A DNA stretch of 64,000 nt from Verrucomicrobiales bacterium (lineage in GTDB: Bacteria > Verrucomicrobiota > Verrucomicrobiia > Verrucomicrobiales > DEV007), in contig JARGNI010000013.1 in assembly GCA_029213195.1 (NCBI GenBank), positions 62,001-126,000 on the forward strand, in the 5' to 3' direction. The notes beneath the pieces were generated by a model. It was not told the DNA's origin, searched no databases, and was given only the letters and a program-made list of their open reading frames with translations. Positions 43,513-48,211 of the stretch are shown in pieces. The number at the start of each line of letters is the position of its first letter. The stretch's first letter is position 1. Both the position numbers and the translations under genes were made by a program.

Positions 43513-45405
43513 ATGGCTGCCGACTACAACGAAGAGCATATTCGCTCGCTGGAACCCCGTGAACACATCCGCCTCCGCCCCGGGATGTATATCGGAAAGC
43601 TCGGAGACGGAACCCAGCAGGACGATGGAATCTACATCCTGCTCAAGGAAGTGATCGACAACTGTATCGATGAGTTCGTGATGGGGAACGGAAAGCAGAT
43701 CGATATCGATATCGAAGAGCGTTTCGTTCGAGTCCGCGACTACGGTCGAGGAATCCCCCTGGGAAAGCTCAAGGATTGCGCCTCCATCATCAATACGGGA
43801 GCCAAGTATGACAGCGAGGCATTCAAGAAATCGGTCGGGCTCAATGGCGTGGGTATCAAAGCCGTGAACTTCCTTTCCGAGTTCTTCGAAATTGCAGCTT
43901 TTCGAGACAAGCAGACGAAAGGCATCACTTTCGCAAAGGGCCACATCACGGAAGAGATGAAGCGGGCCGTCAAGTCGCCCGATCCCAGTGGCACCATGGT
44001 GTGCTTCGAGCCGGACGAAGAGATTTTCGGTCCCTACCAGTGGAACCTCGAATACGTCGAGACCATGTTGAGAAACTACGCCTATCTCAACACCGGACTG
44101 ACCCTGTCGCTGAACGGGAAGAAGTTCAAATCCAAGAATGGCCTCCTCGATTTGCTGAACGAAAACCTCGAGGGCGGAGAAAAGCCGATCTACCCTATCA
44201 TTCATCTCGCCGATAAGGACATCGAGGTGGCCTTCACCCACACCGAGCAAACGGGGGAAGAATACTACAGCTTCGTCAACGGCCAGCACACGACGATGGG
44301 AGGAACGCATCTCGCGGCTTTCCGCGAAGCGATCGTCACGACTGTCCGGAACCACTTCAAAAAACAGTATGACGCTCCGGACATCCGCTCCGGAATCGTC
44401 GCAGCCGTTAGCGTCAAGGTGGAGGACCCTGTCTTCGAATCCCAGACCAAGACGAAGCTGGGCTCGACCCACGTGGCCCCGGACGGGGAAACCATTCGAA
44501 CCTTCGTCGGTAACTTCGTCGGTCAGCAGTTGGACAACCATCTGCACCGGAAAAAAGAAACTGCCGATGCGTTTCTCGACAAGGTCCAACGCTCCGAGCA
44601 CGAGCGGAAAGAACTCAAGGGCATCAAGAAACTGGCTCGCGAGCGCGCCAAGCAATCGAAGGTCCACAACAAGAAGCTCCGGGATTGTCGCGCTCACCTC
44701 AATTCCAAGCACAAGCTGAGGCTCGATTCGACCCTCTTCATCACCGAGGGTGACTCCGCCAGCGGCTCGATCACCAAGGCCCGCAATGTCGATACCCAGG
44801 CGGTGTTCTCACTTCGAGGAAAACCGCTCAACTCGTATGGCATGAGCCGCAAGGTGGTCTACCAGAACGAGGAGTTCAACCTTCTCCAGGCTGCCCTGGG
44901 CATCGAGGACGGGCTGGAGGGTTTGCGCTACAACAAGGTCGTCCTCGCAACCGATGCCGATGTCGATGGAATGCACATCCGGCTCCTCGCGATGACCTTT
45001 TTCCTGCAGTTTTTCCCGGACCTGATCCGCGAAGGACACCTCTACATCCTCGAGACTCCCCTCTTCCGCGTGCGGAACAAGAAGGAGACGCGATATTGCT
45101 ACAGCGAGGAAGAACGGCTCCAAGCGTTGGAAGAAGTTAAGACCCCCGAGATCACTCGATTCAAGGGTCTTGGTGAGATCTCACCGGACGAGTTCAAGTT
45201 CTTCATCGGAGAGAATGTCCGACTGGCTCCCGTCGAGATCCCTCCAAAGCCCAAGCTGATCCAGGATCTCCTCGCTTTCTACATGGGCAAGAACACACCC
45301 CAGCGGCAGGATTACATCATCAAGAATCTCAAGGTCGAAGCAGATATCATCGAAGAGGAAGAAGAAGAGCGCGCCGAGGTTCCCAAGGCGGCGAGTGCGG
45401 CTTGA
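43513..45405 (+). CDS. parE: DNA topoisomerase IV subunit B-type (ParE)
   Basis: Protein of 630 aa, the usual length for ParE and shorter than most GyrB. The N-terminus [17 protein letters not shown] and [16 protein letters not shown] (ATP-site Asn/Glu), [11 protein letters not shown], and [18 protein letters not shown] form the GHKL ATPase; the TOPRIM domain has [17 protein letters not shown] and [13 protein letters not shown]. The pattern matches Bacteroidetes-type ParE. With ParC it decatenates chromosomes and relaxes supercoils. It is the first gene of an operon in which parC follows after a four-helix-bundle gene. Confidence 0.94.
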
Positions 45406-45446
45406 GGGGGTCTTTTGTTCTCTGGATCGTCTTTGTCTTGCTTGCC

Positions 45447-45936
45447 TCTTTTTCCTTATCCTACTCCTTTTCCTTTTCTTCCGAAAGGTAATGAAACCAC
45501 TCTTCGACCACGAAAAACTCGAGGTTTATCAACGCTCCATTGATTTTGCAAAATGGTGCGTTCCTGTTCTCGATTGTATTCCTGCATCAACCTCGATTCG
45601 CAGCCAACTTGATCGTGCCTCAGTTTCCATCCCTCTCAATATCGCTGAAGGAAATGGGAAATGGTCGCGAAAAGATCGCTGTCGCTTTTTCGATATCTCA
45701 AGAGGAAGTGCCTTGGAGTGCGCTGCGGCACTGGATATCGCATCCGCCAGAGGCCTTCTCGACCCTCAACAAGTCACGGAAGGAAAATGCATACTGATCG
45801 CAGTTGTTCGAATGCTCATCGGCTTGATTCAAGCGAATGATCCAGAACGAGGACTGGAACGAGGAGAGTTTAAGGTAGGCGAAAACCTAGAAGAGTATCG
45901 AACGGAAAAGGAAAAGGAGTAAGAAAAAGAAAAGGA
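45447..45936 (+). repeat. Intervening-sequence-like element: four-helix-bundle gene bracketed by complementary arms
   Basis: The left arm (45447-45478, pyrimidine-rich) and right arm (45905-45936, purine-rich) can pair over about 32 positions. Bases 45462-45478 and 45905-45921 are a perfect 17-bp complement; the outer part has 10 Watson-Crick pairs, one G-U and four mismatches. The arms enclose a gene of the S23/four-helix-bundle family. This is the layout of intervening sequences in bacterial 23S rRNA, but here in a protein operon. The right arm also contains the AAGGA that would serve as the parC ribosome binding site. Confidence 0.6.
45491..45922 (+). CDS. Four-helix-bundle protein (S23/IVS-encoded family)
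   Basis: Protein of 143 aa from MKPLFDHEKLEVYQRSIDFA, preceded by AAAGGTA. The LEVYQRSIDFAKWC, IRSQLDRASVSIPLNIAEGNGKW and RFFDISRGSALECAAALDIA segments are diagnostic of the four-helix-bundle proteins found in 23S rRNA intervening sequences and dispersed in many Verrucomicrobia and Bacteroidetes genomes. The biochemical role is unknown; nucleic-acid binding and similarity to diversity-generating-retroelement Avd proteins have been proposed for the family. The gene is visibly poorer in GC than parE and parC, and its stop codon lies within the right arm of the flanking inverted repeat, which suggests insertion. Confidence 0.9.
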   Translation: MKPLFDHEKLEVYQRSIDFAKWCVPVLDCIPASTSIRSQLDRASVSIPLNIAEGNGKWSRKDRCRFFDISRGSALECAAALDIASARGLLDPQQVTEGKCILIAVVRMLIGLIQANDPERGLERGEFKVGENLEEYRTEKEKE

Positions 45937-45943
45937 ATTTCTC

Positions 45944-48211
45944 ATGCCAGAACCCACCCAGAATCCCCTCAAGGGAATGTATTCCGACTGGTTTCTCGAC
46001 TATGCCAGCTATGTCATTCTCGAGCGGGCAGTCCCGCATATCAATGATGGTCTGAAACCCGTTCAGCGTCGCATCCTGCATTCGCTGAAGGAGAAAGACG
46101 ATGGACGCTTCAACAAGGTCGCCAACATCATCGGTCACACGATGCAGTATCACCCTCACGGGGACCAGGCGATCGGAGATGCCCTCGTCAATATGGGCCA
46201 GAAGGAACTCGTCGTCGACACCCAGGGAAACTGGGGAAATATCCTCACCGGTGACTCCGCGGCGGCTCCGCGATACATCGAGACAAGACTTTCCAAGTTC
46301 GCCAACGAAGTGCTCTTCAATCCGAAGACAACGACCTGGGCTGCCAGCTACGATGGACGGAACAAGGAACCGGTTACGCTTCCCGCCAAGTTCCCTCTCG
46401 TTCTCGCGCACGGCGCCGAGGGCATTGCCGTCGGTCTTGCCTGCAAGATTCTTCCCCACAACTTCAACGAACTCATCGACGCCTGCATCTCCGTGCTACG
46501 AAAAGAGGAGTTCGAAATTTTTCCGGACTTCATTCAGGGCGGGATCGCCGATATGTCGGATTACAACGACGGTCTCCGTGGAGGGCGAATCCGTGTCCGG
46601 GCTCGTATCGAACGGGTCAAAGCCCGCCAACTCGTGATCCGGGAGATCCCTTTCGGAACGACCGCGACCAGCCTCTGCGACTCCATCCTCAAAGCGAACG
46701 AGCAGGGCAAGGTCCGAGTCTCGCGACTTGAGGACTGCACCGCAGAGAATGTCGAGATCCATGTCTATCTTCCCGCAGGAGTCGACACCGACCAGACCCT
46801 CCAGGCACTCTATGCCTTCACCGACTGCGAGGTCAGCATCTCCCCCAACGCCTGCGTTATTCAGGACAACAAGCCCCGCTTTCTCGGGGTCAGCGAGATT
46901 CTCAAGCACAGCGCCAAGCAGACCCGGGAACTCCTCAAGCAGGAACTCGAAATCAAGCTGGGAGAACTCCAGGAGAAGTGGCATTTTTCCAGTCTCGAAA
47001 AAATCTTCATCGAGAAGCGGATCTATCGACGCATCGAGGAATGCGAAACCTGGGAAGCGGTCATCGAAGAGATCTGGGAGGGCCTCCGCCCTTACCTCGG
47101 CATGTTTCTCCGCGAAGTCACCGAGGAGGACATCGTCCGGCTCACCGAGATCAAGATCAAGCGTATCTCGAAGTTCGATTCCTTCAAAGCCGACGAATTC
47201 ATCCGCGGCCTCGAAGACCAAATCAAAGAGACAAAGAAGCACCTCCGCCGCCTCACTCAATTCACGATCAAGTACTACGAGAGCATCAAGGAGCGCTACG
47301 GAAAGGGTCGCGAGAGAAAGACGGAAATTTCGACCTTCGATCGCGTCGAAGCCAAGCAGGTCGTGGTCGCCAACGACACCCTCTATGTGAACCGCAAGGA
47401 AGGGATGGCGGGCTACGGCATGAAACGGGACGAGGCCGTCGAAAAATGCTCACGTCTCGATGACATCATCGCCTTTTCCCGGGACGGCACGATGCGAGTC
47501 GTCAAGGTTGCGGACAAGGTCTTCATCGGAAAAGACAATCTCATCGTCCACGTCTTCAACAAGGAACAGCCCAAGTTCTACAACATGATCTATCGTGATG
47601 GCCGCGGTGGGCGGGCCATGGCAAAACGCTTCCAAGTCAGCGGAGTCACTCGGGAGAAGCTCTACGATCTCACCGCAGGAAAAGCAGGAACTCGGGTTCT
47701 CTGGCTGAGCGAACACGACACCGAGGAAGACGCGAACATCATCGTTCGAGTGCATCTGAAATCCGATCTAGGGCTTCGCAAACTCCAGATCGATTTTCGC
47801 TTTGCCGATCTTGGGGTCAAGGGGCGCGGCGCACGAGGAAATATCCTGACCAAGAACCCCGTGGATCGCGTCTCCCGCATACCCAAATCGGAACAGGAGG
47901 AAATCGAAGGCAAGACAAGCTCCGCTCCTCCCGAAAGCGCAAAAAAGCCTGAGCCGCCTAAAAAGGCGGCTACCCGCAAAAAAGCTCCCTCGAAAAAGGC
48001 TGCTCCGAAGAAAGCTCCGAGTCAAAAATCGGTAGCCGGCAAACCTTCGCCAAAGAAGAAAACCGCAGCTCGAAAGGCCTCGCCCCCTAAGCCAGCAACT
48101 CGCAAGAGCCCGGCAAAAAAGGCGGCTTCGAAGAAGAAATCGGCGACCAGGAAGACGAGTGCGAAAAAGAAGAGCGCTTCGAAAAAGGCGACTCGAAAAC
48201 GCTCCAGGTAG
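45944..48211 (+). CDS. parC: DNA topoisomerase IV subunit A-type (ParC) with histone-H1-like tail
   Basis: Protein of 755 aa. The breakage-reunion domain opens with MYSDWFLDYASYVILERAVP and PVQRRILHSLKE; the catalytic Tyr is Y111 in AAAPRYIETRLS. In the quinolone-binding helix the usual Ser is Gln75 (PHGDQAIGD). The family core ends near residue 650, then about 105 residues consist of Lys/Ala/Pro repeats (KKA, KKAP, RKSPAKKA), resembling histone H1 C-terminal tails. The Bacteroidetes-type sequence pairs with the ParE encoded upstream. Its ribosome binding site lies in the right arm of the element at 45447-45936. Confidence 0.94.
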   Translation: MPEPTQNPLKGMYSDWFLDYASYVILERAVPHINDGLKPVQRRILHSLKEKDDGRFNKVANIIGHTMQYHPHGDQAIGDALVNMGQKELVVDTQGNWGNILTGDSAAAPRYIETRLSKFANEVLFNPKTTTWAASYDGRNKEPVTLPAKFPLVLAHGAEGIAVGLACKILPHNFNELIDACISVLRKEEFEIFPDFIQGGIADMSDYNDGLRGGRIRVRARIERVKARQLVIREIPFGTTATSLCDSILKANEQGKVRVSRLEDCTAENVEIHVYLPAGVDTDQTLQALYAFTDCEVSISPNACVIQDNKPRFLGVSEILKHSAKQTRELLKQELEIKLGELQEKWHFSSLEKIFIEKRIYRRIEECETWEAVIEEIWEGLRPYLGMFLREVTEEDIVRLTEIKIKRISKFDSFKADEFIRGLEDQIKETKKHLRRLTQFTIKYYESIKERYGKGRERKTEISTFDRVEAKQVVVANDTLYVNRKEGMAGYGMKRDEAVEKCSRLDDIIAFSRDGTMRVVKVADKVFIGKDNLIVHVFNKEQPKFYNMIYRDGRGGRAMAKRFQVSGVTREKLYDLTAGKAGTRVLWLSEHDTEEDANIIVRVHLKSDLGLRKLQIDFRFADLGVKGRGARGNILTKNPVDRVSRIPKSEQEEIEGKTSSAPPESAKKPEPPKKAATRKKAPSKKAAPKKAPSQKSVAGKPSPKKKTAARKASPPKPATRKSPAKKAASKKKSATRKTSAKKKSASKKATRKRSR
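47952..47971. repeat. Perfect 8-bp hairpin inside the parC tail
   Basis: AGCCGCCT at 47952-47959 and AGGCGGCT at 47964-47971 flank a four-base A loop. It encodes part of the Lys/Pro-rich tail (EPPKKAAT). The GCCGCCT/AGGCGGC palindrome looks like a REP-type unit captured by the reading frame, but only one copy is visible here. Confidence 0.5.

Follow-up and report, generated by a model that had tools for sequence, protein, structure and literature searches.

A four-helix-bundle gene with complementary phased-repeat arms between parE and parC, an intervening-sequence-like element in a bacterial protein operon

The window analysed here is a stretch of 64,000 nt from a Verrucomicrobiales bacterium (GCA_029213195.1, JARGNI010000013.1, forward strand 62,001-126,000), in which a small element lies between the two topoisomerase IV genes. 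Its sole gene is an ORF (45491-45922) for a four-helix-bundle (4HB) protein, and this ORF is bracketed by two complementary arms composed of phased repeats. The features of the locus, in window coordinates, are the following.

43513..45405, plus strand: parE (topoisomerase IV subunit B), the upstream host gene, an ORF; gyrB/parE family models match upstream neighbours of this type
45447..45478, no strand assigned: left arm of the element (inverted repeat); its own right arm is its best partner among 110
45444..45479, minus (bottom) strand: left-arm phased array AGAAAA GGAAAA GGAGTA GGATAA GGAAAA AGAGGC, six RG at 6-nt spacing
45491..45922, plus strand: 4HB ORF (S23p / 23S rRNA IVP), 143 aa, recognized by PF05635 and TIGR02436, with an AlphaFold2 model and matches to 2GSC, 2RLD and DGR Avd
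45905..45936, no strand assigned: right arm of the element (inverted repeat), in which lie the stop codon of the 4HB ORF and the AAGGA that precedes parC
45904..45939, plus (top) strand: right-arm phased array GGAAAA GGAAAA GGAGTA AGAAAA AGAAAA GGAATT, six RG at 6-nt spacing
45944..48211, plus strand: parC (topoisomerase IV subunit A), the downstream host gene, an ORF used as the query in the junction survey

The arms (45447-45478 with 45905-45936) form an inverted repeat of 32 nt that is 88% complementary and has a perfect 17-bp core (45462-45478 with 45905-45921). A first-pass annotation of this DNA had pointed out an inverted repeat around the 4HB gene, and the repeat is confirmed: the left arm scores 24 against its own right arm (rank 1), and all 109 foreign right arms fit worse. 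The same annotation assigned to the right arm both the stop codon of the 4HB ORF and the AAGGA ahead of parC, and they are indeed found there (TAA at 45920-45922, AAGGA at 45932-45936, followed by the parC ATG at 45944); it also correctly described the insert as lower in GC (46%) than parE (55.5%) and parC (55.9%). When the locus is folded as RNA, as had been proposed, the minimum-energy structure pairs both arms, with a whole-fold z-score of only -1.95. An Rfam scan of the locus gave no match above cut-off, and the region is without an rRNA match.

The 4HB ORF matches PF05635 at 6e-24 and 76 bits (curated cut-off 24) and TIGR02436 at 2e-21 and 84.7 bits (curated cut-off 33.8). The AlphaFold2 monomer model of the protein has a pLDDT of 91.6 and matches two solved relatives, 2GSC and 2RLD, with Z-scores of 18.0 and 17.9; both of these structures contain five chains. 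The model also shares its four-helix-bundle fold with Avd of DGR reverse-transcriptase ribonucleoproteins (4DWL, 8UB7) at Z 14-15 and 12% identity, where Z-scores of helical bundles are telling only above about 13, a value that unrelated pectin methylesterase inhibitors reach. The dN/dS ratio is well below 1 in most close pairs of 4HB genes, so the protein is under purifying selection in most pairs. We know of no catalytic motif for mobility in the 4HB protein.

Arm pairing was scored by aligning each left arm with the reverse complement of its own right arm, and mismatched pairs served as controls. The relative set consisted of 110 distinct elements taken from 57 related genomes. The cross-phylum set (Bacteroidota, Chloroflexota, Planctomycetota, Poribacteria, Acidobacteria, Desulfobacterota, Patescibacteria and others) was collected with a narrower 4HB alignment (the broad one lacked enough conserved stretches), which biases the 80 retained loci towards the canonical NIAEG subfamily. 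Among the 110 relatives the median score is 21 for own pairs and 9.5 for mismatched pairs, and 63% versus 1.3% score at least 20; in 78 loci of other phyla, 63% of own pairs and 2.2% of mismatched pairs score at least 18. A score of at least 16 is reached by 86% of the real elements in the relative set, compared with 1.7% and 0.3% of pseudo-elements of the same geometry shifted by 850-1000 nt. At seven recurrent sites, own arm pairs score 1114 versus 757 +/- 39 for arms from the same site in other species (0 of 20,000 permutations), and the left and right arms therefore change together. In some elements the arms are identical over 24-31 nt, free positions included, and the end of the left arm lies a median of 14 nt before the 4HB start codon. 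By these scores most 4HB genes come with a pair of complementary arms of their own, and this holds across phyla.

The arms are built of short repeats. Arm self-match peaks at a lag of 7 (0.526 versus 0.266 for host DNA), with echoes at lags of 14 and 21, and 253 rotation-aligned arms have the consensus RGYNNTN in common (fit 542 versus a null of 410 +/- 17). Phased arrays occur once in 346 kb of this genome compared with 61 of the 110 elements. Because the solved relatives are pentamers, the in-phase units in each arm were counted: among the cross-phylum left arms, 7 have four in-phase RG, 27 have five and 8 have six, the corresponding numbers for right arms being 9, 36 and 7, and five RG are found in about 1% of shuffled sequences. 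In the Verrucomicrobial set alone, whose elements share ancestry, the five-RG peak is weak (p=0.06 for left and p=0.02 for right arms). The RG count also peaks at five in the 17 elements of period 8 (9/17 and 11/17), so it is the number of units and not the length of the arm that is kept. The RG phase in the right arm is at least as strict as in the left, and both arm polarities occur. Taken across the sets, these counts show the arms as phased repeats with a period of 6, 7 or 8 nt, most often 7, and in the usual case five RG in phase, and the arms of the element and its ring protein appear to be matched in number. Two heptamer arrays were seen apart from a 4HB gene. An AGAGGTC array beside a tRNA (G000:C5, L152, 9561-9635) runs into an assembly gap with no 4HB gene visible, and may be a collapsed or ORF-less element; a CCCACTT array lies upstream of a gyrA-like gene in G038 (L136), with no adjoining 4HB gene seen.

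The window element lies between parE and parC and not within a 23S rRNA gene, and it carries the complementary phased arms with an RG core that define the RG-armed class. Most members have the common form with a period of 7 or 8 and five RG, while a 6-nt period with six to seven RG is seen in the window copy and in its two relatives at parE-parC; the RG strand is reversed in two of these three elements, one of them the window copy. Judged by its arms, the window copy is a divergent subtype of this widespread class (period 6, six RG, reversed polarity). In one of the relatives, the parE-parC element of G006 (L127 / L117), both arms are palindromic in their own right over about 90 nt, which makes them direct as well as inverted repeats.

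The same anatomy is found in 23S rRNA. The 4HB locus of the Azospirillum plasmid AZO_p2 lies inside a 23S rRNA gene, and both of its arms have five RG at 7 nt. The intervening sequence (IVS) in Coxiella 23S rRNA has tandem GACAGAT heptamers before the S23p start, its ends form a 28-bp stem, and RNase III cleaves at the first heptamer (PMC4990558). The 5x7 arms of Azospirillum, together with the heptamers and stem of Coxiella, therefore make the rRNA and operon elements look like one class. Like the 23S rRNA IVSs of Coxiella, Leptospira and Azospirillum, the window element encodes an S23p-family protein, has complementary ends, belongs to a class with phased heptamers and falls in the range of about 430-500 nt; unlike them, it occupies the intercistronic gap of a protein operon with a period of 6, six RG and reversed polarity. 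RNase III excision has been demonstrated for the Coxiella IVS (PMC4990558), whereas for the parE-parC element it would be expected by analogy only. TAACTGA heptamers in Beggiatoaceae, Cyanobacteria and Bacteroidetes have been reported as direct repeats with S23/4HB genes unmentioned (PMC4679880). Like the 4HB arms, these repeats fit the right-arm strand of RGYNNTN and sit just before start codons, and we infer that they are linked to 4HB elements. In the open-access literature we found no account of arms flanking free-standing 4HB genes, of five-RG arms or of the operon habitat.

A profile search identified four TIGR02436 genes above cut-off in this genome, the window copy included, and all four lie on the same strand between partner genes (parE-parC, gyrB-gyrA, sucC-sucD and cysD-cysN). 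All have low-complexity complementary arms, the three other copies included, as the first-pass annotation had proposed to check for other 4HB genes of the genome, and the four arm motifs differ. With four copies carrying four different motifs, the elements lack the uniform terminal inverted repeats of a classical transposon or MITE. In the clade the recurrent neighbours are cysD-cysN, pheS-pheT, metK-ahcY, gyrB/parE-gyrA/parC, nuoI-nuoJ, sucC-sucD, GDP-mannose dehydratase-type pairs and two planctomycete-type pairs, PSD1-DUF1501 and PSD3-DUF1552. Both flanking genes are co-oriented with the element in 82 of 95 clade cases versus a background of 43%, where recurrent sites are not independent; co-orientation is weaker outside the clade (44/74). 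The neighbours listed here show that in the clade most elements occupy the space separating two operon genes of the same orientation, often those for subunits of one complex. On cyanobacterial plasmids, copies lie between cas10/cmr3, parA-like/parB genes and cas6/cas4, and some plasmid copies run antisense between partner genes, as between both ribonucleotide reductase subunits. The arrays of the cas6-cas4 element on a Pseudanabaena plasmid (L248) are very long, with 14 and 18 in-phase RG. A 4HB gene between gmk and nadD of Flavobacterium columnare is included in a table of phage elements (PMC5524665), and a search of phages for 4HB gave one match only, a DGR Avd.

Occupancy of the sites is patchy. 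When the parE-parC junction was read in 16 genomes of the same genus, only the window genome and G006 were occupied (2/16), and the junctions of closer relatives are empty, with short spacers and no evident replacement; a third carrier, G032, was found via its 4HB gene (L111). The metK-ahcY site holds an element in G012 and none in G014, and the two genomes are 97% identical beside the site. The gyrBA elements of G020 and G031 are 97.5% identical in hosts that are 92.6% identical, while the pheST elements of the same two genomes are only 72.8% identical (hosts 92.8%) and differ in arm motif. In the cysD-cysN spacer of G020 (L265) a right arm, about 35 nt long, stands alone with neither a left arm nor a 4HB gene, apparently a decay remnant. 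The patchy sites, the replacements and the occasional solo arm make the element look mobile. The GC content of the 4HB gene is below that of the host in 109 of 110 elements. The nearest 4HB relative is found at the same site in 61 of 67 cases, so movement to new sites would be rare or old, and among recent copies sought at different sites within one genome the best pair has about 67% identity. No exact target site or duplication is readable at the empty sites, where the spacers have diverged too far to align. A broken match in cysN of G009 (193 nt) proved to be an assembly gap. In G004 (L134) only 63 nt separate parE from parC, and they include a short hairpin, CTTTTCTTTTT / AAGAAAAAGAG, a possible ORF-less element remnant.

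The explanation that we favour, with a probability of roughly 0.6, places the locus among mobile elements of the IVS class, in a minimal form. Its ring protein would read the arms, each subunit taking one RG, and RNase III probably cleaves the transcript hairpin. Such an element would consist of a phased-repeat arm, one 4HB gene and an inverted copy of the arm. The 4HB ring, a homopentamer in the solved relatives, would bind an arm in single-stranded form, with each subunit contacting one RG, in a TRAP-like manner. TRAP has 11 subunits, a motif spacing of about 5 nt and a fold unrelated to 4HB, and it is used here as a working analogy only, for a ring protein that recognizes short phased motifs, one per subunit. 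Arm recognition may help the element to move or to be maintained, and perhaps also acts on the expression of the element; with the left arm directly adjoining the start codon of the 4HB gene, autoregulation of 4HB is possible. In the transcript the arms would pair and RNase III would excise the element as in 23S rRNA, presumably leaving the host genes usable, and this reading calls for no dedicated part in ParC control. A different ring may be formed in the parE-parC clade, where the arms hold six or more RG spaced 6 nt apart, which in the window copy lie on the opposite strand. A bolder formulation makes each arm a tally of the ring, with one RG per subunit of a 4HB homopentamer read on a single strand, the 23S IVSs as the members that dwell in rRNA, most copies in the gaps between operon partner genes, and a hexamer predicted for the six-RG parE-parC clade; we put this forward tentatively, at slightly less than even odds.

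The first-pass annotation had proposed instead that the arms pair in the mRNA and either mask the parC ribosome binding site or serve as a target of RNase III, which would set the level of ParC; a regulator of this kind might be a domesticated element. The predicted fold does pair the arms, the AAGGA before parC sits in the right arm, elements are mostly co-oriented with their operons, and the Coxiella IVS is cut by RNase III at its first heptamer (PMC4990558). Against such a regulator, most relatives have no element at parE-parC and no evident replacement, the same elements occur between many unrelated gene pairs, and the G002 junction has an AAGGA without the element; right arms of standard polarity are pyrimidine-rich, with no purine-rich ribosome binding site. 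A stem selected in sense RNA was expected to accumulate G-U-compatible mismatches, yet these are fewer than the reverse type (221 vs 316), and a strand-specific wobble test without the R position still gives slightly fewer of them, with a weaker bias. The right-arm RG phase, no less strict than the left, is likewise unexpected if only sense-RNA pairing mattered. Taken together, the strict right-arm phase, the occurrence of both polarities and the rarer G-U-type mismatches argue against selection on sense-RNA pairing alone, and the mismatch and phase data leave room for recognition of the arms as single-stranded DNA. We consider an RNA-level regulator unlikely, and dedicated ParC control is not supported. 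What stands of the earlier proposal is the IVS-like element in a protein-coding operon, with which the arm anatomy shared by a true 23S rRNA IVS and the within-site covariation of the arms agree.

The arms could also be a passive product, with slippage yielding the phased repeats and template switching copying one arm to the other, and a protein that does not read them. Tandem repeats do slip and quasi-palindromes do homogenise as a general matter, and the identity over 24-31 nt at free as well as constrained positions in some arms fits such copying. Slippage alone would not be expected to yield an RG core common to phyla, a count of five at periods 7 and 8, or arrays that are nearly absent elsewhere in the genome, and we regard a purely passive origin as improbable. 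A retromobile accessory, in which the 4HB ring partners a reverse transcriptase in trans, like DGR Avd, and the element moves via RNA, would agree with the fold match to Avd of DGR RT complexes and with the sense orientation in operons. Unlike the DGR systems, the window genome has no RVT_1 match, nor do the genomes with 7-9 copies (G009, G026, G032, G040 and G054), and the DGR Avd gene examined as a control is without such arms; this explanation appears very unlikely.

S23p/4HB genes occur in many phyla and are annotated merely as 'four helix bundle protein', and to our knowledge no origin or function has been agreed on for the 23S IVSs in the approximately 35 years since their description. 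A countable motif in a common anatomy joins the 23S IVSs to the S23p/4HB genes, and the role of the protein becomes directly testable. The gaps between partner genes in operons would then be a preferred home of a mobile element.
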